From Sphingomonas sediminicola (lineage in GTDB: Bacteria > Pseudomonadota > Alphaproteobacteria > Sphingomonadales > Sphingomonadaceae), in NCBI RefSeq assembly GCF_014489515.1, contig NZ_CP060782.1, positions 2,647,001 through 2,711,000 of the forward strand: a DNA stretch of 64,000 nt. Reading direction: 5' to 3'. Shown one piece after another: positions 17,688-43,414 of the stretch. Both the position numbers and the translations under genes were made by a program. The notes beneath the pieces were generated by a model, which was given only the letters and a program-made list of their open reading frames with translations, searched no databases and was not told where the DNA came from. Within the stretch, counting starts at the first letter, position 1; every line of letters begins with the position of its first letter.

Positions 17688-18103
17688 CGCGGCGGTCTGT
17701 GGAAGAAGAAGTGGAAGCGCTGGCGACAATGTCGCCGGCGCAAGTCCGCGCGCGGTGGAAACAGGTGACCGGCGCCGTGGTGCCTAAGGTCAGCCCGAGC
17801 TTGCTCCGGCTGGCACTCGCCTACGAGTTGCAAGCAAAGGCTTACGGCGGCCTCTCGAGAAAGACACAGCAACGGCTCGCCCAGCTCGCAGCAGCGAAGA
17901 CGCAGACCCGTGACATCAAGCCCGGCATGCGGCTCGTGCGCGAGTGGAACGGTGCCGTTCACGTGGTGGACGTGGACGACAGTAGCACAATTCACTGGAA
18001 TGGCCGCGCTTGGCGATCCCTGAGCGAGGTTGCGCGGGCGATCACCGGCACGCGCTGGTCGGGACCGGCCTTCTTCGGCCTCAAGCAGAAGGTCGCGGCA
18101 TGA
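17684..18103 (+). CDS. DUF2924 domain protein
   Basis: 139 residues with the DUF2924 pattern: PSLLRLALAYELQAKAYGGL, a basic linker, then IKPGMRLVREWNGAVHVVDV and HWNGRAWRSLSEVARAITG ending in GPAFFGLK. It overlaps the gene before it and the recombinase after it by ATGA junctions, so all three are one transcriptional and translational unit. DUF2924 proteins are found almost only with serine recombinases of proteobacterial mobile elements and prophage-like islands. Their molecular role is unknown; a DNA-binding accessory factor for site choice or directionality is an inference. Confidence 0.9.
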   Translation: MTRRSVEEEVEALATMSPAQVRARWKQVTGAVVPKVSPSLLRLALAYELQAKAYGGLSRKTQQRLAQLAAAKTQTRDIKPGMRLVREWNGAVHVVDVDDSSTIHWNGRAWRSLSEVARAITGTRWSGPAFFGLKQKVAA

Positions 18104-19746
18104 AGAAGACCCGCTGTGCCATCTACACGCGCAAGTCGAGCGAAGACGGTCTCGAGCAGGATTTCAATTCCCTCGATGCCCAGCGGGAAGCCTGCGCCGC
18201 CTACGTCCTGAGCCAAGCGAGCGAGGGGTGGTCGCTGCTCCCCGACCGGTACGACGATGGAGGACTCTCCGGCGGATCGCTCGAGCGGCCTGCCCTGCAA
18301 CGGATTCTCGCCGATGTAGCTGCAAACAAGATCGACATCATCGTCGTCTACAAGGTCGACCGGCTCACTCGCTCGCTTCTCGATTTCGCGAAGCTCGTGG
18401 AGGCATTCGACAAGGCAGGCACAAGCTTCGTTTCGGTCACGCAGTCGTTCAACACGACGACGAGCATGGGCCGGCTAACGCTCAACATGCTGCTGTCATT
18501 CGCCCAGTTTGAGCGCGAGGTCACCGCCGAGCGTATCCGCGACAAGATCGCCGCATCCAAGGCGAAGGGAATGTGGATGGGGGGCACACCACCGCTCGGC
18601 TATCAACCGAACGGGCGTACGCTCGCCATCGTCGATGACCATGCCGCGATCGTTCGCAACATCTACCTGCGTTACGCCGAGCTCGGGAACGTCCGCGTCG
18701 TTGCCGAGCAGCTGGTCCGCGATGGCATCAGGTCACCGGATCGAATATCTGGCGCCGGTCGCAGGTTCGGTGGCAGGCAGTTCACCCGCGGGCAGATCTA
18801 TCACATCCTAAAGAACCCCATTTACGTCGGTGACATCGAGCATCGCGGCGAAACTTACGATGGTCAGCACCCTGCCATCATTGATCGAGCGCTTTGGAAC
18901 GAGGTCCACAAGCGGCTGAAGTCCAACCTTCGGGGCATGCGATGCGCCCGCGCCGCCAATCCGAGTCCATTGTCCGGCAAACTGTTTGACCACGACGGAG
19001 AGCCGTTAATCCCGGTGCACGCCTGCAAGGGCAAGGTGCGCTATAGATACTACGTTAGTCGAAGCCTGCAGCATCACGGCGCCATTGCAGGAACGATCGG
19101 CATGCGCGTGCCGGCGCGGGAAATCGAAGCGCAAGTCACGGAGCTCCTTGCGGGCCTGTTCAATGATGCAGCGACGCTCGCGGGAAAACTGCGTGTTAGT
19201 GCCGCAGACTATCCCGCACTGGTGGCTCGGTGCGATACCATTGCTCAGGACCTTCGGCAGCAGAAGACAGCGTTGCCTGAGTTTGCCGACCAGGTGCGCC
19301 TCCTGCCCGACAGAATCGATGTGGAGATTTCAACGGCTCGTCTTGCAGCGGAGCTGAATATTCGAGGTTCAGAATGCACGCCCACCATCACACTGTCGGC
19401 GGATGTGCGGCCCAAGCGGAGTGGCGGCATCGTCAGGTTGGTCCACTCGGACGGCCGATCACCCGAGGCCTCGCGACCCTCCTCGTCCCTCATCAACCTC
19501 GTGGCGAAGGCGCATCGCTGGTGGAAGCAGCTCACCCAAGGGGAATGTGACATCACTGAGCTCGCACGAATCGAAGGAGTGACAGCCTCGTACGTCACTC
19601 GCGTGGTACGTCTGGCCTTTCTCTCACCGGCTACTGTGGGAGCCATTCTGCAGGGACGCCAGCGCACGGGCGTGACTACCACCGGACTGACGATTGGCCG
19701 CGATATTCCGATGCTATGGTCGGCCCAAGCGAACCAGCTCGTCTAA
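18100..19746 (+). CDS. Large serine recombinase
   Basis: 548 residues. The N-terminal catalytic domain begins with CAIYTRKSSEDGLEQ, where the conserved Ser of the YxRxS motif is the nucleophile; DIIVVYKVDRLTRS and MLLSFAQFEREVTAERIRDK are the other resolvase-family motifs. A Recombinase domain follows (residues about 165-290, including GGRQFTRGQIYHILKNPIYV), then a shorter zinc-ribbon-like segment and a C-terminal HTH-like region. It catalyses site-specific cut and rejoin through a Ser-DNA link and is the only recombinase gene I see in the island. Its attachment sites were not located. It could move the DUF3489-DUF2924-recombinase unit alone or a larger block; tRNA integration is more typical of tyrosine integrases, which I do not find in this window. 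Confidence 0.92.
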   Translation: MKKTRCAIYTRKSSEDGLEQDFNSLDAQREACAAYVLSQASEGWSLLPDRYDDGGLSGGSLERPALQRILADVAANKIDIIVVYKVDRLTRSLLDFAKLVEAFDKAGTSFVSVTQSFNTTTSMGRLTLNMLLSFAQFEREVTAERIRDKIAASKAKGMWMGGTPPLGYQPNGRTLAIVDDHAAIVRNIYLRYAELGNVRVVAEQLVRDGIRSPDRISGAGRRFGGRQFTRGQIYHILKNPIYVGDIEHRGETYDGQHPAIIDRALWNEVHKRLKSNLRGMRCARAANPSPLSGKLFDHDGEPLIPVHACKGKVRYRYYVSRSLQHHGAIAGTIGMRVPAREIEAQVTELLAGLFNDAATLAGKLRVSAADYPALVARCDTIAQDLRQQKTALPEFADQVRLLPDRIDVEISTARLAAELNIRGSECTPTITLSADVRPKRSGGIVRLVHSDGRSPEASRPSSSLINLVAKAHRWWKQLTQGECDITELARIEGVTASYVTRVVRLAFLSPATVGAILQGRQRTGVTTTGLTIGRDIPMLWSAQANQLV

Positions 19747-19793: not shown

Positions 19794-20771
19794 TCAGGCG
19801 ACTTGGACAATCGAGCTGGCCGGGCCGGAATAGATCCCGAGAGTCAGAGTTTGATAGTGATAGCAGAAGCTCTCAAACTCGAAGCGATGGTCATTTCCAT
19901 TGTCATCAGTAAGTAGAATCTCGGCGGCGCCAAGGCTGCCGCCGCGTTGACGGCCGCAATATTCGACGATCCGATCGAACACATCGCTCTCGCTGATTTT
20001 TGAAAACATCGCGGCGAAGGGAGGCGACTGAACGAAATGCTTGCATGGCTCGTCCGGGTCGAAGTCGGCCTTTCTCATCGACGGATGGGGATGGCCGGTG
20101 ATCAGCCCGACCATAGGCACTTCCTCGCCCCAGTATTCGATGCACCGCCAGAAAGTTGAAGTTTTGGTGTTGCCGTAGCGCTCCGCGAGGATCTCCAGAT
20201 TTTTGAAGCAAGGTTCGAGGGAGCGCGCTTCTAGCCGGAACCGATCGCGGAGGAAAAGCAGCTTTGCCGCGGCAAAGTTAGCTTCCGCCTCGAGCTCCGC
20301 ATGACAGGCGGGGATGAGACAATGATCGTCGTCACCGAGCATTGCGCCCTGATGCCACGGGAGAAGGCTATGTCCGACCTCGTGGGCCTCGTTCCACCGA
20401 TGCTTGAGCACCGGCTGGTCCTTGTCGAGCAGGATTCGGCGCTGATCCGGAAGGTAGAGGGCGCGAAGGTCGAGCTTGCGGACCGCCCTCACCAGCAACA
20501 TGGGATTGAGGAGCACCTGCTTGCCGGCGACACGCAGCTTCGCGACCGTTTCCTGAAGCAAGCCTTCGTCGGTGGCGGAATAGTATCCAAAGTCGAGTTT
20601 CAGCGACGAGCGGACAATCTTAAGATTGAGGGGCGGCTCGGGGTTGCCGAGCCGGTCAAGGACTAGGCCGATCCGTTCATCGATGTCGGCAGCGGTTCTC
20701 GCCTTGAGAAAGATACCCTTGGCCACCCTGCGACGCCTGTCATTTGCCTTTGCGTTCGCTGAGGACGGCAA
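19794..20771 (-). CDS. ImmA/IrrE-family metallopeptidase
   Basis: 325 residues. NEAHEVGHSLLPWH supplies HExxH with a second set of His/Glu downstream (ELEAEANFAAAKLLF), the zinc site of the ImmA/IrrE (COG2856) peptidases. The first 60 residues are basic and carry no signal peptide, so the protein is cytoplasmic. Members of this family cleave or sequester a partner repressor, usually an XRE protein encoded next to it; the XRE gene here overlaps its start by 32 bases. The likely function is to control that repressor in response to damage or phage infection. The stop at 19794 lies 47 bases from the serine recombinase stop, which reads towards it. Confidence 0.85.
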   Translation of the reverse strand: MPSSANAKANDRRRRVAKGIFLKARTAADIDERIGLVLDRLGNPEPPLNLKIVRSSLKLDFGYYSATDEGLLQETVAKLRVAGKQVLLNPMLLVRAVRKLDLRALYLPDQRRILLDKDQPVLKHRWNEAHEVGHSLLPWHQGAMLGDDDHCLIPACHAELEAEANFAAAKLLFLRDRFRLEARSLEPCFKNLEILAERYGNTKTSTFWRCIEYWGEEVPMVGLITGHPHPSMRKADFDPDEPCKHFVQSPPFAAMFSKISESDVFDRIVEYCGRQRGGSLGAAEILLTDDNGNDHRFEFESFCYHYQTLTLGIYSGPASSIVQVA

Positions 20772-21216
20772 TCAGCCCGTCAAGAGCCGCTTGCTCTTCC
20801 TTTGTGAGGCGCGCGACCGATTCAGAAAGCGCCGCATAGCGGATCGCCTCATCAACATATTTAAGGTCTTTGGGCCTGGTGAGGCCGGAAAGCCCCATCA
20901 GCTTGTGCTGCGAAACGCCGAATATCTGGGCGAGCTGGTAAAGGGTGCGGGTGTCTGGCAGATGGTGCGCATCACGCTCGATGCTGAGGAGCTCGCCAAC
21001 ATCGACCTCGGTCAGCTCGGCGAGCGTATCGATCGACATGCCCCGGCCACGCCTGGCGAGGCTCACAAAGCGGCCAAGCGCAAGTCTGGACTCATCCGAC
21101 CCTTCCGTGTCTTCGTCAGGAACCGGGTCGATGGCGGTGAGGCCGGCACCGACTTCGTGACCGATCTCGAGGTGCGCCATTGCGAGGCACCACTCAGGTG
21201 TGATCCTATCGGCCAC
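20740..21216 (-). CDS. XRE-family transcriptional regulator
   Basis: 158 residues. A central helix-turn-helix (residues about 45-105) reads LGRFVSLARRGRGMSIDTLA, VDVGELLSIERDAHHLPD and LYQLAQIFGVSQHKLMGLSG, the XRE/Cro pattern. A helical C-terminal part (EAIRYAALSESVARLTKEEQ) follows. It overlaps both neighbours on the same strand, so it is the third gene of a four-gene operon with an RHH gene, a GNAT gene and an ImmA/IrrE peptidase. Expected role: DNA-binding repressor whose activity the peptidase modulates. Confidence 0.85.
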   Translation of the reverse strand: MADRITPEWCLAMAHLEIGHEVGAGLTAIDPVPDEDTEGSDESRLALGRFVSLARRGRGMSIDTLAELTEVDVGELLSIERDAHHLPDTRTLYQLAQIFGVSQHKLMGLSGLTRPKDLKYVDEAIRYAALSESVARLTKEEQAALDGLIAVLSERKGK

Positions 21217-21859
21217 TTCGCTCGCCCCTCATCAAGAATCTCTCCGCCATGTCGGGAGTCATCTCGAAGTATCTCAGCTTGTTGTAATTAGCATCCGAAC
21301 CCAAGTCACGCATGCCGCACTGGTTGGCGTAATAGTCGTTCGACTGGGGCAACGAGTGGAGGCCGATCCGGCCCTTGAACCCGAGCTCTAAGCTGCGTTG
21401 GATCGCTTTGCCGATCATGAGCGTGCCGATGCCTACGTACCGCGGCGCTCCACCGGTCAGGGTTCTTCGGTTCCAGGGCGCGACCTCGAGGAAGTCAATA
21501 TAGACCATGTGCTGGCGGGCTTGCTCTTCGATGCGGGCCCTGAAATCGAGATCGACGATCATCATCCCCTGAGTCACGCCGGCGGCCATGACTGCGGCCG
21601 ATTCATTGCTGAGCGAGGAGCCAAGGGCGTTATGCTTCTTGCGCCAATTCCACTCGCGGCTCTGCGGCCAGAGATGGCGCTCGACGCCCGCGTCGCTCAA
21701 CAGAACCAACTGCTCCTGGATGGCGGGTCTCCAATGCGCTTCCCAGTCCGCGAGGTTCTTGTCGGTGATTGGCTGCCAAAATTCCGCCGGCACGCCGGCA
21801 CCGGAGACGGCGTCCATCAACGCAACCTGGGAGATGCTCTTGGGACCCGGGGGCGTCAT
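21206..21859 (-). CDS. GNAT-like acetyltransferase, possible toxin
   Basis: 217 residues. The C-terminal two thirds look like a GNAT fold: YIDFLEVAPWNRR (strand beta4), PRYVGIGTLMIGKAIQRSLE (the acetyl-CoA pyrophosphate loop, close to Q/RxxGxG/A) and IGLHSLPQSNDYYANQCGM (the late helix with Tyr). The N-terminal 60 residues are not conserved in families I know. It overlaps the upstream 69-residue RHH gene by four bases. RHH-GNAT pairs are a well-known type II toxin-antitoxin arrangement in which the enzyme acetylates aminoacyl-tRNA. This protein is longer than TacT or AtaT (about 160-175 residues), so a toxin role is only a possibility. Confidence 0.65.
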   Translation of the reverse strand: MTPPGPKSISQVALMDAVSGAGVPAEFWQPITDKNLADWEAHWRPAIQEQLVLLSDAGVERHLWPQSREWNWRKKHNALGSSLSNESAAVMAAGVTQGMMIVDLDFRARIEEQARQHMVYIDFLEVAPWNRRTLTGGAPRYVGIGTLMIGKAIQRSLELGFKGRIGLHSLPQSNDYYANQCGMRDLGSDANYNKLRYFEMTPDMAERFLMRGERSGR

Positions 21860-22065
21860 AGCATCATGATCTCCGCCTTTTGCTTCTTCGCCTCGTCCTC
21901 GAAGAACAGGGTTTCGCCACGCTCGAGGCGCTCCTCGACACGTTGATAAAGGCGGAGCGCCTGGCGCAGGAGAAGGGTCTTGCTGAGGTCCTTCTTGAGG
22001 CTGAGCGCTTCCAGGACATCCATCTCCTCTGGCGACAAATTGAGGGTCATCGTTCTCTTCGACAT
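21856..22065 (-). CDS. Small ribbon-helix-helix-like regulator
   Basis: 69 residues: MTLNLSPEEMDVLEALSLKK followed by DLSKTLLLRQALRLYQRVEE is the strand-helix-helix pattern of RHH DNA-binding proteins, with a charged C terminus (FFEDEAKKQKAEIMML). Similar short proteins are common on alphaproteobacterial plasmids and islands. The ATG at 22065 is preceded by AGAAGGAGAAAACCG, a strong ribosome site. It is first in a four-gene operon and divergent from the ubiquitin-like cassette, with the 135-base gap holding 11-base-spaced TAGCT repeats that such a protein could bind. Confidence 0.75.
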   Translation of the reverse strand: MSKRTMTLNLSPEEMDVLEALSLKKDLSKTLLLRQALRLYQRVEERLERGETLFFEDEAKKQKAEIMML

Positions 22066-22200: not shown

Positions 22201-22488
22201 ATGTCACCCGCGATCAATCCCGCAGGTCCGCTCGAAGAGCCCGGACGCAAACCGGACGAGACCGAGATCATTGTGAACGGCCGTACGCGCACCGTTCCAG
22301 GGGAAGAGGTGACGTTCGAGCAGATCGTCCAAATCGCCTTTCCCAACGATACGACCGCGAACGCCGTCTTCTCGATGACGTTCCGGCACGCCCAGTCGAA
22401 GCCTCATTCGGGCGACCTTGCGGCAGGGGGTGTCGTCGAAGTGAAGAAGGGAACCGTGTTCAATGTCACGCGAACTGTTCAGTCGTAA
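22201..22488 (+). CDS. Ubiquitin-like protein (multiubiquitin family, single domain)
   Basis: 95 residues. After a 20-residue Pro-rich lead, EIIVNGRTRTVPGEEVTFEQ begins a beta-grasp fold, continuing with IVQIAFP, FSMTFRHAQSKPHSGDLAAG and GGVVEVKKGTVFNVTRT. This matches the bacterial multiubiquitin (Multi_ubiq) domain, though only one copy is present where many relatives have several. The C terminus is ...RTVQS, with no di-glycine. ATG at 22201 has GAGGAG (22186-22191) nine bases upstream; an ATG at 22194 is out of frame. The E1-like gene overlaps its last 26 bases. Inferred role: a modifier activated by the adjacent E1, possibly for conjugation to a target during defence. Confidence 0.8.
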   Translation: MSPAINPAGPLEEPGRKPDETEIIVNGRTRTVPGEEVTFEQIVQIAFPNDTTANAVFSMTFRHAQSKPHSGDLAAGGVVEVKKGTVFNVTRTVQS

Positions 22489-23631
22489 CGCCGACCTGAA
22501 GAGACTTCGGGATGAAGGCTATTATGTCGAGGTTGTTGGGGACTGCTGCTCATGCGGCACGTTCCCTATCTCGACGCCAGCGGCACTGTTCGCCGGGGTA
22601 CGATCATCTCATCATTGACGCTCGCTGGTGACCTTACTCAGCGGCCTGACACGCATGTCGTGCATTTCGCGGGTGCATATCCATGTCAGGCGAACTGCTC
22701 GCCTATCGAGCAGATCCGGCACCAGTCCGGATCTTACGATCTTGGATGTGGTGTGGTCGCGCAGCACTCCTTCTCGAGCAAGCCGGTCGAAGGGTATCGC
22801 GATTATCATCACAAGATGACGACCTACGCAGCCATCTTGTCGGGGCCCGCCGCCCTCGTTGAGGACGGGGTTTCCGCGCGCGTGTTTCGCGAGCCGGAGG
22901 AGGAAGAGGATAGCGTCTTTCACTATACGGAGACAGCATCGAACCGGGTCGGGATCGGCGCCCTTGCCGAAAGGCTATCGGCCGAGCGCGTAGCGATTAT
23001 CGGGCTCGGCGGAACAGGCTCCTATGTACTCGATCTCGTCGCCAAGACCCCCGTCAGGGAAATCCATCTTTTTGACGGTGACGTACTTCTTCAGCACAAC
23101 GCTTTCCGAGCGCCCGGTGCGGTGACCTTGGACACTTTGCGTGAGGCGCCGAAAAAGGTCGCATATTTCGCATCAATATATGGCGCCATGCGCAAGGGCA
23201 TCGTGGCGCACGACCATTTTCTCGATGAAGGTAACGCCGATACCCTCGAGAACATCACGTTTGCGTTCGTCTGCATGGACGCAGGCGCCGCCAAAAGAGC
23301 AGTCGTCGAACGGCTTGAGAGTATTGGAGCAAGTTTCCTTGACGTTGGCATGGGCCTGGAGCTCGACGAGGGAACGCTTGGCGGGATTCTCAGAGTTACC
23401 GCGAGTACGCCTGAACGGCGGGACCATTTCAGGGCGAACGTCTCACTGGACGAGTCCGATGGCGGAGACGTTTACGCCTCCAATATCCAGGTCGCAGACC
23501 TTAATGCCCTGAACGCGGTGCTCGCGGTCGTGAAATGGAAGAAGCTGAGAGGTTTCTACCGAGACCTCGAAGGCGAACACCACATGACCTACACCACTGA
23601 TGGCAACCTGCTCCTCAGCAGCGCTGCCTGA
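22463..23631 (+). CDS. E1-like ThiF-family activating enzyme with DUF6791 N-terminal domain
   Basis: 389 residues once a missing G in the run at 22533-22536 is restored; this joins SRELFSRNADLKRLRDEGYY to GLLLMRHVPYLDASG in one frame and moves the start to the ATG at 22463, inside the Ubl gene. The N-terminal half is DUF6791-like, with THVVHFAGAYPCQANCSP. The C-terminal half is a ThiF/E1 domain: VAIIGLGGTGSYVLDLVAKT is the ATP-binding loop and IHLFDGDVLLQHNAFRAPG the adenylation site Asp. E1 enzymes adenylate a ubiquitin-like C terminus. The HFAGxYPC segment resembles the region around the E2 active Cys, so the N-domain may be an E2; that is inference. The stop overlaps the next ATG by one base. 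Confidence 0.8.
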
Positions 23632-24098
23632 TGGAACGTGTCGAACGTTTGCAGCCCTCCTTTGTGGAGGAGGTTCCGGAGAAGTTACAGCCGGGCGTTC
23701 TGTACGTAAGCATTCCGTATGCAACGGCGGTCCATTGTTGCTGTTGCGGCTGCGGGGAAGAAATCGTGACCCCTTTGACGCCGACGGATTGGCGAATGAC
23801 CTACGACGGTGAAAGCGTATCACTGTCCCCGTCTGTCGGGAGCTGGTCTCTCCCGTGCAAGTCGCATTACGTCATTGACCGTGGCAAGGTGCGCTGGGCG
23901 GCCGCGTGGACGAAGGCTCAGATCGAGCGACAGTGGGCCAGGGATCGTGCCGCGAAGGCGGCATATTATGGCCGGCCGCTCGAAGCGGCCGCTGAGATCG
24001 TGTCGCCGCCAGTCGGAGAGACTACTCCCCCGCGACCACATCCCAAAAGGTCGCTCTTCAAAGTAGTCGTGAACTGGCTGTTCGGACCACCAGATTGA
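23631..24098 (+). CDS. DUF6527 protein of the ubiquitin-like cassette
   Basis: 155 residues. AVHCCCCGCGEEIVTPLTP, then SLSPSVGSWSLPCKSHYVI and GKVRWA are the DUF6527 signature, with a Cys-rich knuckle (CCCCGC here, usually CPCGC) and a later PC-S-H pair that together should bind zinc. The C terminus is a basic Pro-rich tail (TTPPRPHPKRSLFKVVV) ending in WLFGPPD. DUF6527 genes almost always follow an E1 gene with the DUF6791 domain and a multiubiquitin gene, as here. Its TGATG junction with the E1 shows translational coupling. The treble-clef-like zinc site makes an E3 or substrate-adaptor role attractive, but no activity is established. Confidence 0.8.
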   Translation: MERVERLQPSFVEEVPEKLQPGVLYVSIPYATAVHCCCCGCGEEIVTPLTPTDWRMTYDGESVSLSPSVGSWSLPCKSHYVIDRGKVRWAAAWTKAQIERQWARDRAAKAAYYGRPLEAAAEIVSPPVGETTPPRPHPKRSLFKVVVNWLFGPPD

Positions 24099-24336
24099 GA
24101 TCCAAATTGAAGTGGCTTCAAATGAAGCATGCACTGGACTGATCGGCCTAAGTGCTTGCCGCTGAGAGCTTGGCTTCGGGGTGGCCGTCTCGCCGGCCCT
24201 CCGGGGCTTTAACGGCACCTACACAGTCAAGTCATTAACACCGAGCTACTTCTCAGACATACAAGCGATGCTGAACGTGCGCCCCAAGCATCGAGCGGGC
24301 ATCACGATCTCGCTAGATGGCACTCAAGGGGATGGG

Positions 24337-27300
24337 ATGGAATTTCCGGAGGCGTTGAATCTATGGGCGCATCAAGCCGCCGCCGTCGGAACGATTGACG
24401 CATATCTCAACCGCCGGCGAACCGCCGCTGCCCTTGGACGGGCGGCGCTGATCAATGTTCCTACTGGAGGTGGAAAGACCGCCATTATCGGGGTTTCGGC
24501 GCATTGGCATCCCCGCGCAGAGCGGGTTCTGGTTCTAGCGCCGCGGACCGCAATTCGCGATCAGCTTGCGCGAGAATTGGGCGGGCAGCGGGGTTTTTTT
24601 CCGCGCCACGGATTCGATGCAGCTGTCCTGCCCAAGGCTGTAAAGTGCGTTTCGACCGCAGCTGATCTGGCAGAACTTCCTGACCGCGGAATCCTGGTTT
24701 CGACGATTCAATTGATCGACGATCTGACGCGCTCACAGGAGAAGCGCGTCACCTACGATCGGTTGGCCGACTGGTGCGATGCCATATTCGTCGATGAGGG
24801 GCATTACGAGCCGGCACGATCGTGGAGTCAAACCATTCGCGGCCTGAAGACGCAGACAGTGCTGGTGACCGCCACGCCGTATCGCAACGATTTAAAGTTG
24901 TTCGAGCTCGATTCCGAGGCGTTGCATGTGACACGCTATGAGGAGTTGGTGGCGGCGAATATTCTGCGTCGCGTCGCTGTAGTCGAGGGAGATCCCGCTG
25001 CGCTCGCAACTCAGGAAGGGTTCGTCCAAAGTGTCTACGATATTTTCGTTGAACAATTTGGCGAACCGCCTTCAACGCAGCGGAAACTGATCATTCGTTG
25101 TGACGGTGAGGACACCGTTCGCCAGATCGGAAACGTCGTTCGTCATCACGCGCTCGGTGCCGCAGGGATCGTCTGCCTGCACGAGCGCTTCTCCCCGGCA
25201 TTTAGCGAGCCTTGGGAGGTGCGGCAGCCACCCGATCCAGAGGCAGACAACGCTCCGGCCGTGTGGGTGCATCAGCATAAGTTACTCGAAGGCGTTGACG
25301 GCCCGAGTTTTCAAGCAGTGGCCTTTTTCGATGTGCGTGGTTCCGCACGTGCCCTTGTGCAGCAAATTGGGCGCGTAATCCGCAACCCCGCGCGAGTACC
25401 TGAAGCGACCGCGCTGCTCATTGATCATAGCAACGATTTCTTGGCGTCAAGTTGGCGGCGATATCTCCGGTACGACTCTACGCTGACCAAAGCAGGCATC
25501 TTGCGCGGCCTCGACGAGATCGCCGGGCAACTGGACCGCACACTGCCTGACATCCTCTACGTTGATCGCCAATTTCGTGAACGTTTCGTCCATGGTCCCG
25601 GGAGCGAGGCCGAACTACTGGCTTCTCTTCGACTTCCTCAGCGTTGTCAGCTTTGGCGCGCCTCGGCCGGCTTCAGCATGGCTGCGTTGCGGGCCGCCAG
25701 CGAAAGGCGCTTTGTTGACGCGAGCTATCCCTACACACTGCTCGAGGAAAGTGAGGACGCTCTCACGATCTTATTCACGAGTGTCGACTCTTCCCCGCTG
25801 TTACAGGACCACTATTTCCTTGAGCGAACGCTGCATGTGCTCGTTTGCCAACGAGTGGGCGACACTATCGTCTTTCTCGATACCTCGCGTCCCAATCCGG
25901 ATCCGGATGCTCGCGCGCACATGCATGGCGCGGTTCCGCGCTCGAGGATGGTCGGCTTGCTCACCCAAGGGGTCGATAGCAACATAATTGAAGTAGGCGC
26001 TCGGAATTCGGCACTCGGACCGTCCGCCGTCCGCCGGCGATTAACCACCGCGGCTGCCCTCCAGGCGACTCCACCCCTACTCGACGAATTTCAATACGTG
26101 GCATCAACTGTAACGGCGGCACGTGCTTCGGCTGGGCCGCCGGTCGTTGCAGGCGGATTCGTCCGGCGAGCAATTGGATTCAGCCGCGGCGGCGTGGCGG
26201 ACGCTGGTCCGCGGCTCTCGCTAACTGAATGGTCAGGCTGGACTCGTGCCTTATTGGCCGTAATCGCCGGTCAACAGGCAGGCCCGACCTATCTTGACCG
26301 GTTCGCCGCGCCATTGGATGCACCACCGGCGGATCCGCGACCGCGAAGCCTGCTCTTCGATCTGGACGATATCGGAGCGCATTATGAGAGCGCACAAGGG
26401 CAGGGAATTCCGCATTCGCAGCCAGTGGAGATCGCCGACCTTTGCCTTGAGTGTCACGCCGACCAAGCTGAGGCTGCAGGAGATCTTGAAGCCAGGCGCC
26501 TAGTTCAGATCGACGCAAACAACGTGGCTTGCCCCGGAACAGTCCGCTACGTCGCTTCAAGTGGAACTTACGAGCTCGAATCGCCCAGATTAGCTCAGCT
26601 CTACAGACGCACCGATGCAACTCGCAGCGGCAGTATCGTCGACGTTCTTAACGCTCGACAGGCCTTCACGGTAATCACAGAATCGCCGAACACGGTTTAT
26701 GCTGACAGCAACTTCTATGATCCGCGCCTCCCCTTGGGTCCTGGATTTGATTTCGCCGCAATAGGTCTGGGCAACGTATTCCTTCACGAGCCTGCGCTTC
26801 GAGCACGGACCAGCGAGAAAGGCGGACAAAACAGCGCTTTGCCGGCAGGCTGGGCACCGAATTCTGTCTTTGAATGGATCGATACGAACGTAGGAGCAAT
26901 CGCCGACGCTCCGGAGCTCGTCGTATGTGATGATGGCACGCGGGAGTTTTGCGATTTCATCATCGTGGGCACGCGAAGTGGCCGGCCGCTGGTCCAGATG
27001 GTTCATGCGAAGGCTGCCGACGGCGCATGGGTGTCGGCCTCCAAGCTTCACGATGTCTGCGGCCAAGCGTCGAAGCAAGTAGGGATGCTCAGCTTATTCG
27101 CGCCAGCGCGGCCGCGGCAGGTAGACCTCTGGTCGGAAGCCTGGGTGGGCCCGGGTGGCGAAGGCACTGTCAACGCACGGACTCGCCACGCGAATGGCGC
27201 ATGGGCTGGTCTCGCGGGTCCGGAAATCTGGACTCGGCTCGACCGGTTGCTCCGACAGCAGGATACGGAACGGGAAGTTGTTTTAGTGTTGGGCGCATGT

Positions 27301-27438
27301 CTCAACCGCGATCATCTTCTCAACGGTGCGAGCGCCGTTCCCGCCACGGTCAACGCAACCCACGCACTTCAGCTGTTACGAAGCACGATGGCGGCTGTTG
27401 CCGGCGTCGGTGCGCGTCTAAGGGTCATCTGCGGCTGA
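24337..27438 (+). CDS. Large SF2 DEAD/DEAH-type helicase with probable C-terminal nuclease domain
   Basis: The frame is open from 24181 (GTG) to 27438, 1085 codons; I prefer ATG 24337 (1033 residues) because AAGGGG lies five bases upstream and the helicase starts there (WAHQAAAV). Motifs: INVPTGGGKTAIIG (I), VLVLAPRTAIRDQL (Ia), IFVDEGHYEPA (II), VLVTATPYRND (III), LLEGVDGPSFQAVAFFD and QQIGRVIRNP (V, VI). Residues about 400-900 are unassigned. Near 26950-27080, CDFIIVGTRSGRPLVQMVHA followed by Lys, then VCGQASKQ, looks like a PD-(D/E)XK nuclease strand pair, so this may be a helicase-nuclease. No frame change is needed. It lies 80-240 bases after the ubiquitin-like cassette and may belong to it or be a separate defence gene. 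Confidence 0.75.
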   Translation: MEFPEALNLWAHQAAAVGTIDAYLNRRRTAAALGRAALINVPTGGGKTAIIGVSAHWHPRAERVLVLAPRTAIRDQLARELGGQRGFFPRHGFDAAVLPKAVKCVSTAADLAELPDRGILVSTIQLIDDLTRSQEKRVTYDRLADWCDAIFVDEGHYEPARSWSQTIRGLKTQTVLVTATPYRNDLKLFELDSEALHVTRYEELVAANILRRVAVVEGDPAALATQEGFVQSVYDIFVEQFGEPPSTQRKLIIRCDGEDTVRQIGNVVRHHALGAAGIVCLHERFSPAFSEPWEVRQPPDPEADNAPAVWVHQHKLLEGVDGPSFQAVAFFDVRGSARALVQQIGRVIRNPARVPEATALLIDHSNDFLASSWRRYLRYDSTLTKAGILRGLDEIAGQLDRTLPDILYVDRQFRERFVHGPGSEAELLASLRLPQRCQLWRASAGFSMAALRAASERRFVDASYPYTLLEESEDALTILFTSVDSSPLLQDHYFLERTLHVLVCQRVGDTIVFLDTSRPNPDPDARAHMHGAVPRSRMVGLLTQGVDSNIIEVGARNSALGPSAVRRRLTTAAALQATPPLLDEFQYVASTVTAARASAGPPVVAGGFVRRAIGFSRGGVADAGPRLSLTEWSGWTRALLAVIAGQQAGPTYLDRFAAPLDAPPADPRPRSLLFDLDDIGAHYESAQGQGIPHSQPVEIADLCLECHADQAEAAGDLEARRLVQIDANNVACPGTVRYVASSGTYELESPRLAQLYRRTDATRSGSIVDVLNARQAFTVITESPNTVYADSNFYDPRLPLGPGFDFAAIGLGNVFLHEPALRARTSEKGGQNSALPAGWAPNSVFEWIDTNVGAIADAPELVVCDDGTREFCDFIIVGTRSGRPLVQMVHAKAADGAWVSASKLHDVCGQASKQVGMLSLFAPARPRQVDLWSEAWVGPGGEGTVNARTRHANGAWAGLAGPEIWTRLDRLLRQQDTEREVVLVLGACLNRDHLLNGASAVPATVNATHALQLLRSTMAAVAGVGARLRVICG

Positions 27439-27631: not shown

Positions 27632-27722
27632 TGGCGGAGCGGGAGGGATTCGAACCCTCGATACGCTTTTGGCGTATACTCACTTTCCAGGCGAGCGCCT
27701 TCGACCACTCGGCCACCGCTCC
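27632..27722 (-). tRNA. tRNA-Ser (anticodon GGA)
   Basis: Reading the minus strand, the acceptor GGAGCGG (5' end at 27722) pairs with CCGCTCC, followed by the discriminator G and an encoded CCA at 27634-27632. The anticodon GGA is at 27688-27686 in a loop closed by the CTCGC/GTGAG stem, and a long variable arm (ATACGC with GCGTAT) marks it as class II serine tRNA; GGTTCGAATCC is the T loop. Its 3' end faces the accessory island, the usual orientation for a tRNA integration site, and core sphingomonad genes begin about 80 bases beyond its 5' end. Confidence 0.95.
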
Positions 27723-27799: not shown

Positions 27800-28210
27800 A
27801 TGCGACAAGCGATGCGGCGCTTCGAAATTCCGCCCTCGGCCGACGAGATAGAGGCGATCGCGCGCCGCGCCTTGCGGTCGCTGCCGGAGCCGTTCGCGGG
27901 CCATTTGCGCGACGTCGTCCTGTTGATCGAGGAGTTCGCCGACGACGAGACGCTGGACGCGATGGGTATCGAAGACCCGTTCGACCTAACCGGGATCTAC
28001 GAAGGCATACCGCTGACCGAGCGGAGCGTCGATCTGTCTGGGACATTGCCGGACAAGATACGACTGTTCCGGCGACCGATCCTCGACGAATGGGCAGGCG
28101 GCGAAGACACGCTCGAGCATCTCGTCGCGCATGTGCTAGTGCACGAGGTGGGTCATCATTTCGGCCTGTCGGACGCAGACATGCACGCGCTTGAGGAAGC
28201 GGTTCGATGA
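27800..28210 (+). CDS. Zincin-like metallopeptidase (DUF1025 family)
   Basis: 136 residues. [17 protein letters not shown] contains HExxHxxG, the zinc site of the minimal zincin family found across alphaproteobacteria; the third ligand is Asp after the Gly. [20 protein letters not shown] and IRLFRRPIL are also typical of it. No signal peptide, so a cytoplasmic enzyme; substrates are unknown. It is the first clearly chromosomal gene after the tRNA and overlaps ccmA by an ATGA junction. Confidence 0.88.
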
Positions 28211-28757
28211 AGCCGCTGCTCGGATTTGACGGTGTGACATGCCGGCGCGGAGGTCGCCTTCTGTTCGAAGACCTGGATCTCAAGATCGGCCCGGGCGAAG
28301 CGCTGCACCTGGTCGGACCCAATGGATGCGGAAAGTCGAGCCTGATCCGCCTTGCGGCGGGACTGCTGCGAGCAGAGCAGGGATGGATCGAGCGCAGCGA
28401 ACTGGCGCTTGCGGACGAGGGGCTCGCGTTGGATCGTGAGCTTCCCCTCAAACGCGCACTCCAATTCTGGGCGGACGTATCGACGAAGCGATGAATGCGC
28501 TGGGCCTGACTCGCCTTGCGCATGTGCCAGTCCGGCTCTTGTCGACGGGACAAGCCAAGCGGGCGACGCTCGCTCGCGTGGTGGCGTCGGGCGCACCGCT
28601 GTGGCTGTTGGATGAGCCGCTCAACGGCCTCGACAGCGATGGCGTTGGGCGTCTCGAGAAACTCGTCGCCGCACATCTCGAACGGGGTGGAGCTGTGCTG
28701 GCCGCGTCTCACGGGCCGATCGGCGGGACCTGGACTCATCTGGAGTTGGGGGCATGA
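28207..28757 (+). CDS. ccmA: Heme exporter ATP-binding protein CcmA
   Basis: 183 residues after restoring one base near 28482. Walker A is [15 protein letters not shown], the ABC signature is [14 protein letters not shown] (Thr in place of the usual second Gly) and Walker B is [13 protein letters not shown]. Short single-domain ABC proteins followed directly by a CcmB permease are the CcmAB pair of system I cytochrome c maturation, which releases heme from CcmC/CcmE with ATP hydrolysis at the cytoplasmic face. The stop overlaps ccmB by ATGA. Confidence 0.88.

Positions 28758-39025: not shown

Positions 39026-43414
<4,389 letters not shown>

Follow-up and report, generated by a model that had tools for sequence, protein, structure and literature searches.

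The window analysed here, a stretch of 64,000 nucleotides from Sphingomonas sediminicola (bases 2,647,001-2,711,000 of contig NZ_CP060782.1, assembly GCF_014489515.1, a single-contig genome of 2.76 Mb with a completeness of 90.6%), contains a cassette of three plus-strand genes that encode a ubiquitin-like protein (Ubl, Multi_ubiq family), an activating enzyme (E1) made of a DUF6791 and a ThiF domain, and a DUF6527 protein, with Pfam matches well above chance. Judged by its sequence, the cassette is of a type known since 2006, a subset of the operon type 6e of Iyer and colleagues, and is a sister branch of the Bub operons. As read from its genes, the DUF6791 branch has a ready-made Ubl end other than glycine and no JAB. 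We tentatively propose that in this JAB-less branch a conjugating enzyme (E2) fused to the E1 would relay the Ubl through a tyrosine and then a serine, in a pathway devoid of a deubiquitinase. Gene content, conservation and kinship of the E1 to BubD are observations; the chemistry, the roles given to DUF6791 and DUF6527, and the regulation are what we infer.

The search for relatives of the E1 yielded 214 stretches, the best 80 of which were retained, together with 115 plasmid records. The relatives span many phyla, from Proteobacteria to Bacteroidota, and include one Nitrosopumilus bin; DUF6791 itself was found in 12 genomes out of 298 sampled from the family and in 8 out of 388 sampled from the phylum, both counts including the S. 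sediminicola genome. At an E-value of 0.01 the Ubl is present in 90 of 92 loci, the window included (not in L007 and L010), and DUF6527 in 89 (not in L005, L008 and L073). The Ubl of the window has a single domain, and those of relatives L013, L016, L018 and L040 have three PF14452 domains. Conservation in the E1 was read from an alignment of 93 rows, that is 89 rows plus four of seven new loci (the other three were not recovered), several of the rows being near copies.

The Ubl end and the gene complement

The last residue of the Ubl is serine in 88 of the 90 loci, alanine in two and glycine in none. In the Ubls of 27 JAB-type loci, compared by eye, glycine stands at the matching end in 24, L137 being ambiguous and L133 and L136 bearing serine; that glycine is followed by a fused E2, by a short tail or by nothing. 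The mature Ubl end is known for Citrobacter only, where the PDB chains stop at Gly229. The window gene is the sole PF14452 match in the genome, and its relative in the PDB is 9cd2 (E 0.017).

In 88 of 90 loci across phyla, including the window (E1 ATG at 22463, Ubl stop at 22488), exactly 26 nucleotides are common to the Ubl and E1 genes, so that these bases encode both the end of the Ubl and the beginning of the E1; L009 and L011 are without overlap. Since the last Ubl codons are thereby read twice, part of the constraint on the terminal serine may come from the overlap, and its conservation may even be a by-product. A few cases speak against a mere by-product: L009 and L011, which lack the overlap, end in serine, as do the JAB-type L133 and L136, where the gene after the Ubl is not an E1. 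The E1 and DUF6527 genes share one base.

That the cassette lacks a separate E2 or JAB gene had been stated by the first-pass annotation, and the genome bears it out: Prok-JAB (PF14464), Prok-E2_A, Prok-E2_B and Prok-E2_E (PF14462, the BubB-type E2 family) gave no match in the whole 2.76 Mb, in which, at the completeness given above, a gene could be hidden by a gap. The PF14464 profile does match in 8 of 14 control genomes; the Prok-E2_B and Prok-E2_A searches, which served as absence tests only, gave matches in 3 and 2 of 246 genomes. Models built from 27 Bub-type E2 sequences and from 9 JAB sequences found nothing in any of the 92 DUF6791 loci within the stretches searched. JAB-type loci found through their E1 contain a PF14462 E2 over the cut-off in 16 of 19 cases, and all 20 aligned JAB-type E1s keep the JAMM ligands.

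L133 and L136 are JAB-type operons with an HNHG form of JAMM, and their middle gene is not identified as an E2 by Pfam. Theirs are the two serine-ended Ubls of the JAB type, and they are also the two loci that lack a recognised E2. A rule by which a serine-ended Ubl would go with a dead JAMM was discarded, since the aligned JAB-type E1s keep H, H, S and D in 20 of 20.

The E1 tyrosine and the DUF6791 domain

The E1 is related to BubD, including the tyrosine of its loop. The best structural match of the E1 half is Citrobacter BubCD (VIA Z 24.1 over 223 residues, root-mean-square deviation 2.6, with a predicted model), and comparison of hidden Markov models (HMM-HMM) with nine BubD sequences gave a probability of 99.3 and an E-value of 8.8e-21. 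The residues of the ATP site are conserved. No cysteine is evident as E1 nucleophile, because no cysteine column of the ThiF half exceeds 52 of 89 rows; the only column above 60% cysteine in the whole E1 is that of Cys75, in DUF6791. Tyr338, located in the loop that precedes the last long helix, is invariant (93 of 93) and is placed by the HMM-HMM alignment on Tyr370 of BubD, a residue that is tyrosine in all 20 JAB-type E1s and was changed to phenylalanine in the complex of PDB entry 9eav, as stated in its title. Bub itself is reported to act through oxyesters (Ye et al. 2026). In a tree of 61 E1 domains, which retained 34 of 35 DUF6791 E1s chosen from the 93, 18 of 20 JAB-type E1s (L135 and L137 were trimmed out) and 9 of 16 outgroup loci, the DUF6791 E1s are set off together by one branch (100/100) and the JAB-type E1s by another (90/85); loci with Prok-E2_A and Prok-E2_B tried as outgroups were removed by the filter.

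That DUF6791 is a fused E2 is a plausible reading. In the model of the E1 of relative L013 (pLDDT 92.7) the domain consists of a helix (residues 10-17), strands at 21-25, 28-37, 43-51 and 66-70, a hairpin at 86-105 and a helix at 115-133, and its first five elements agree with the E2 fold in order and spacing. By eye, a run of motifs seems common to DUF6791 and the Bub E2s: gG.Llv..VPYv against WLii..f.lP, PC..DG..I against PPL..vnG..IP, and FS.KP..GY.DY..KMTtY against QRWSRH..W.P..D...T. The best clue is given by position 105, the first serine of the FSSKP motif, which is serine in 91 of 93 rows and cysteine in two (L005 and L008), both of which have histidine at position 75. Because only serine or cysteine is accepted there, the position is taken as nucleophile-like, which would fit an E2 or a peptidase.

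We propose a relay model in which the ThiF half would adenylate the C-terminus of the Ubl, a serine instead of a glycine that would need no trimming. The Ubl would then move to the invariant tyrosine of the E1 as an oxyester, and from there pass in cis to the N-terminal DUF6791 domain, acting as a fused E2-like domain with Ser105 (rarely a cysteine) as nucleophile. DUF6791 would hand the Ubl to its target, probably picked or positioned by the DUF6527 protein. We hold this sequence of events to be possible, somewhat short of probable.

Several observations weigh against the model. Homology of DUF6791 to the Bub E2s looked promising in the first runs and then lost its formal backing: mixed E2 sets gave HMM-HMM scores of 19.4-19.5 (19 E2s, with none of 200 column shuffles as high) and 17.7 (27 E2s, 2 of 200), at E-values of 0.014-0.049 and probabilities of 1-3, and none of 60 shuffles had been as high in an earlier run; those sets held L133 and L136, unrecognised by Pfam, and L137, under the cut-off. 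Once these were dropped, the scores were 16.9 for 16 Pfam-confirmed E2s and 16.6 for 24 E2s, equalled by 8 and 10 of 200 shuffles respectively, which is not significant; because this cleaned test lies near chance, we lowered the probability given to the relay and to the wider oxyester pathway considered at the end. Ser105 was paired with the WS of the E2s in one low-threshold alignment and the pairing was lost in the cleaned ones. No Pfam E2 family matches any of 29 DUF6791 members, the DUF6791 profile finds no PDB chain at an E-value of 10, and the structural match to BubCD is one of the E1 half. In a plain mixed MAFFT alignment Tyr338 and Tyr370 fall in different columns; the loop of the DUF6791 E1s is shorter by five residues. 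E2 and JAB genes were looked for in stretches some of which were short (about 3.4 kb for L001-L012 and, for 38 of L013-L092, less than 7 kb on one side), and the JAB type does not always have an E2 either, PF14462 being under the cut-off in L137 and not found in L133 and L136. Lastly, the E1 of the window itself is broken by a frame change and has cysteine at the position of Gly79, glycine in all 93 relatives.

The first-pass annotation had also read the enzyme as a fused E1-E2 with the cysteine of the YPC motif as E2 active site. The fusion keeps the backing of the gene complement, the order of secondary structure elements and the serine or cysteine at position 105, and loses that of the profile comparison, which ranges from weak to chance. 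The active site has to be given up as first placed. Position 75 is cysteine in 81 of 93 rows, and glycine four residues further on is invariant, both of which speak for an E2 built around Cys75; the remaining 12 rows have lost the cysteine, mostly the more distant ones, with histidine in four, serine in four, tyrosine in three and phenylalanine in one, so that eight bear histidine, tyrosine or phenylalanine, and catalysis by Cys75 is highly improbable. An unlikely but more substantial possibility is that DUF6791 processes or deconjugates the Ubl in place of JAB, as Iyer et al. guessed, with His65 and either Ser105 or Cys75 as catalytic pair. It occupies the position of JAB at the N-terminus of the E1, the pattern of histidine at position 65 in 92 of 93 rows with serine or cysteine at position 105 in all 93 would fit a peptidase too, and E2 homology is not established by the cleaned profile test. 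Against this, the Ubl stops at its last residue and offers no tail for trimming, and the system would lack the E2 that most JAB-type loci possess. Descent of DUF6791 from JAB was rejected, the HMM comparison being at noise (11.3, E 0.44), to which it must be added that another kind of peptidase need not resemble JAB.

The Ubl could also be activated without being conjugated, the serine end serving for some other product, or the Ubl could be a scaffold or filament; multiubiquitin proteins are reportedly able to form filaments (Gong et al. 2025). MccB and PaaA rank among the nearer E1 folds, which speaks for this option, but the nearest fold is BubCD, not MccB, and the tyrosine equivalent to BubD Tyr370 is invariant; we regard this option as improbable. 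The relay through tyrosine and serine is kept as the preferred model at the strength given above.

The window copy and its surroundings

The coordinates of the cassette and of the divergent genes beside it are collected in Table 1. Three overlapping genes had been described at the outset; the families and the overlaps are as described, and the E1 is not a single open frame, a frame change having been missed. The E1 start and the rest of the gene lie in different frames, the change falling between about 22540 and 22552. In none of the 91 relatives is there a frame change at that point, start and rest sharing one frame in all of them, and 89 have a single frame from query residue 12 or earlier to at least residue 320, the exceptions being L002, broken further on, and L073, which ends early. 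A programmed frameshift was rejected on the same ground, all 91 relatives being in one frame at the break site.

Table 1. Features of the cassette and of the divergent module upstream, in window coordinates
Feature	Position	Strand	Evidence
Ubiquitin-like protein (Ubl), single Multi_ubiq beta-grasp domain, ends ...FNVTRTVQS	22201..22488	+	PF14452 62.9 bits
C-terminal Ser codon of the Ubl	22483..22485	+	Ser in 88/90 loci
Out-of-frame E1 start, DUF6791 positions 1-19 at residues 10-28	22463..22618	+	PF20590 15.6 bits; NF004802 positions 1-27
Remaining E1, DUF6791 positions 22-149, then ThiF/E1 domain	22552..23631	+	PF20590 159.6 bits; PF00899 35.6 bits
Cys of the YPC motif (Cys75)	22684..22686	+	C in 81/93 relatives
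Cys codon at the Gly79 position	22696..22698	+	Gly in 93/93 relatives
Candidate DUF6791 nucleophile, first Ser of FSSKP (Ser105 in relative L013)	22774..22776	+	S 91/93, C 2/93
Candidate E1 Tyr (VYASNIQ), profile-aligned with BubD Tyr370	23473..23475	+	Y in 93/93
DUF6527 protein, H-x-C-x-C-G-C and C-x2-H	23631..24098	+	PF20137 88 bits
Ribbon-helix-helix (RHH) protein, first gene of the divergent module	21856..22065	-	67% identity to L170 RHH gene
GNAT-like protein	21206..21859	-	41% identity to annotated L170 GNAT; itself unmatched in Pfam and NCBIfam
Helix-turn-helix (HTH) regulator, CapH-like position	20740..21216	-	HTH_19 40.4 bits; 40% to L170 HTH gene
M78/ImmA-type metallopeptidase, CapP-like	19794..20771	-	PADLOC capP E 8.4e-12; PF06114 19.2 bits (cut-off 22)

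Two further genes of the window are split across frames, those of cytochrome c oxidase subunit I (coxA, 40633-42504, minus strand) and ccmA (28207-28757, plus strand). In coxA at least two frame changes lie inside stretches 73-100% identical to relatives, and both halves match CtaD. Protein matches of the window to two good-quality genomes of the same genus are split over frames in 6 of 31 (G306) and 5 of 24 cases (G301), compared with a baseline of 3 of 38 and 4 of 42 when G306 and G301 are set against each other; the excess is modest, and open reading frames called in the wrong frame cause some splits in every set. The assembly seems prone to single-base errors. Because coxA and ccmA are broken by insertions or deletions in the same window and no relative shares the break, that of the E1 is most likely an assembly error. 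It is rather unlikely that the window copy is instead a dead cassette in which the frame change and the replacement of Gly79 by cysteine are real decay, an explanation compatible with any reading of the mechanism. The frame change together with a unique substitution at a position otherwise invariant speaks for decay, but coxA and ccmA are frame-split as well, the completeness of 90.6% compares with 96-100% in eight of ten further genomes sampled from the genus (77 and 86 in the remaining two), and both flanking cassette genes are intact.

The four divergent genes (RHH, GNAT-like, HTH and M78) occur in the same order upstream of a JAB-type Bub operon of Agrobacterium fabrum (L170), whose fourth gene was equated by its ImmA/IrrE annotation. 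The same four precede 2 of the 80 other DUF6791 loci (L049 and L064), and an M78 relative lies near five of the 80, these two included. According to PMC13373217, CapH and CapP are an HTH repressor and a peptidase activated by single-stranded DNA, which together regulate immune operons of various kinds; CapW, or CapH plus CapP, accompanies 219 of 544 Bub operons, and protection against phages by Bub is not demonstrated there. The divergent module, with a CapH/CapP-like pair of repressor and protease, probably turns on expression of the operon when DNA is damaged.

The cassette appears to sit in an island that ends at a tRNA gene, because, in comparisons over 100-kb stretches, two relatives are collinear with the window from 27631 onward, which is the 3' end of tRNA-Ser(GGA) (27632-27722). 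A serine recombinase gene is located at 18010-19746. Downstream of the cassette, 24181-27438 encodes a ResIII/DEAD helicase whose C-terminal part matches the PADLOC candidate PDC-S71 (E 1.8e-29) and of which no relative was found in the stretches of the 80 other loci. UvrD-type helicase genes recur beside DUF6791 operons on Mesorhizobium and Acinetobacter plasmids (L129, 3707-7108 and 12395-15787; L160, 830-4222).

DUF6527, known systems and meaning

The DUF6527 protein had been likened at first to a treble-clef E3 or adaptor, and Iyer et al. 2006 (PMC1779556) had guessed a treble clef as well. His35, Cys37, Cys41, Cys76 and His79 are invariant in 54 aligned rows. The model (pLDDT 87.9) does not favour the assignment: it has strands only across residues 8-89, with the second pair of ligands on a strand and no helix at the conserved cysteines and histidines, and a fold search of the PDB gave no usable match (Foldseek E 0.72 and VIA Z 3.2 at best), by which a treble clef is not excluded. 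Because the JAB-type DUF6527 of L193 has lost most of its cysteines, not all members of the wider family bind metal.

Iyer, Burroughs and Aravind 2006 (PMC1779556) describe, within operon type 6e (their fifth operon type), a subset in which JAB gives way to an unknown domain. It has one to three Ubl domains, each some 70-75 residues long (the window has one), an uncharacterised domain at the N-terminus of the E1 in the place of JAB, whose identity with DUF6791 we judge by description only, and a small Cys/His metal-binding protein; its distribution is sporadic and mobile. Their motif C-x3-C-x(35-38)-H-x2-C is present in its first half as Cys37-x3-Cys41, while the second pair reads Cys76-x2-His79 instead of H-x2-C; in the DUF6527 protein of the Synechocystis pSYSX operon it reads HCQCH, which contains H-x2-C. 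The authors noted charged residues that are conserved and supposed a role like that of JAB, whereas the serine or cysteine at position 105, the E1 tyrosine and the serine-ended Ubl are pointed out here. As far as the literature searched shows, the last-named Ubl and position 105 are new and the kind of cassette is not. That literature, with Ye et al. 2026 and Gong et al. 2025 outside it, holds no description of either and no mention of DUF6791 or DUF6527. The NCBIfam label of the E1, NF004802 (606 bits), is named 'hypothetical protein' only.

With the Bub system (Citrobacter BubA/BubB/BubCD) the cassette has in common the Multi_ubiq Ubl, an E1 of the same type with its loop tyrosine, DUF6527 and, upstream of several Bub operons, an HTH gene and an ImmA-type peptidase gene. 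The Citrobacter plasmid operon (L128) encodes a multiubiquitin protein, ThiF and DUF6527; its Ubl protein carries a fused E2 (PF14462), the two parts matching the PDB chains named Citrobacter BubA and BubB, and its E1 begins with JAMM (PF14464). The Bub E1 thus bears a JAMM domain (BubC) where that of the window bears DUF6791, a PF14462 E2 accompanies most JAB-type loci whereas the window has no separate E2, and the Bub Ubl has glycine at the matching end in place of the terminal serine. A scan of a viral contig collection with BubCD found no relative. Cap2 of type II CBASS and other fused E2-E1 enzymes would share with the window E1 an E2-like domain N-terminal to the E1; Cap2 relies on cysteines and is partnered by a JAB protein, and the Pfam families E2_A and E2_B, which we take to cover Cap2-like fused enzymes, do not match DUF6791. 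The Bil (bacterial ISG15-like) system also has a Ubl and an E1, together with a separate E2 and a JAB deubiquitinase, neither of which was found in the window genome. The cassette was rightly set apart from Bil in the first-pass annotation; Bub and the 6e type are the closer comparison, given the common Ubl family, DUF6527 and type of E1.

The general view is that ubiquitin-like modifiers require a terminal glycine, cysteines in E1 and E2 and, usually, a deubiquitinase. The relay proposed here could belong to a widespread pathway free of deubiquitinase, with a fused E2-E1, a serine-ended modifier, oxyesters on tyrosine and then serine, and an E2 nucleophile that is serine or cysteine, an extension we advance with more doubt than the relay itself. 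Because there is no deubiquitinase, the mark may be permanent, a one-way modification. A compact branch seemingly without terminal glycine, E1 and E2 cysteines and deubiquitinase would show how far the chemistry of these modifiers can shift, and would do so in a small two-protein system each step of which is open to point mutation, the exchange of serine and cysteine at position 105 being its direct prediction.

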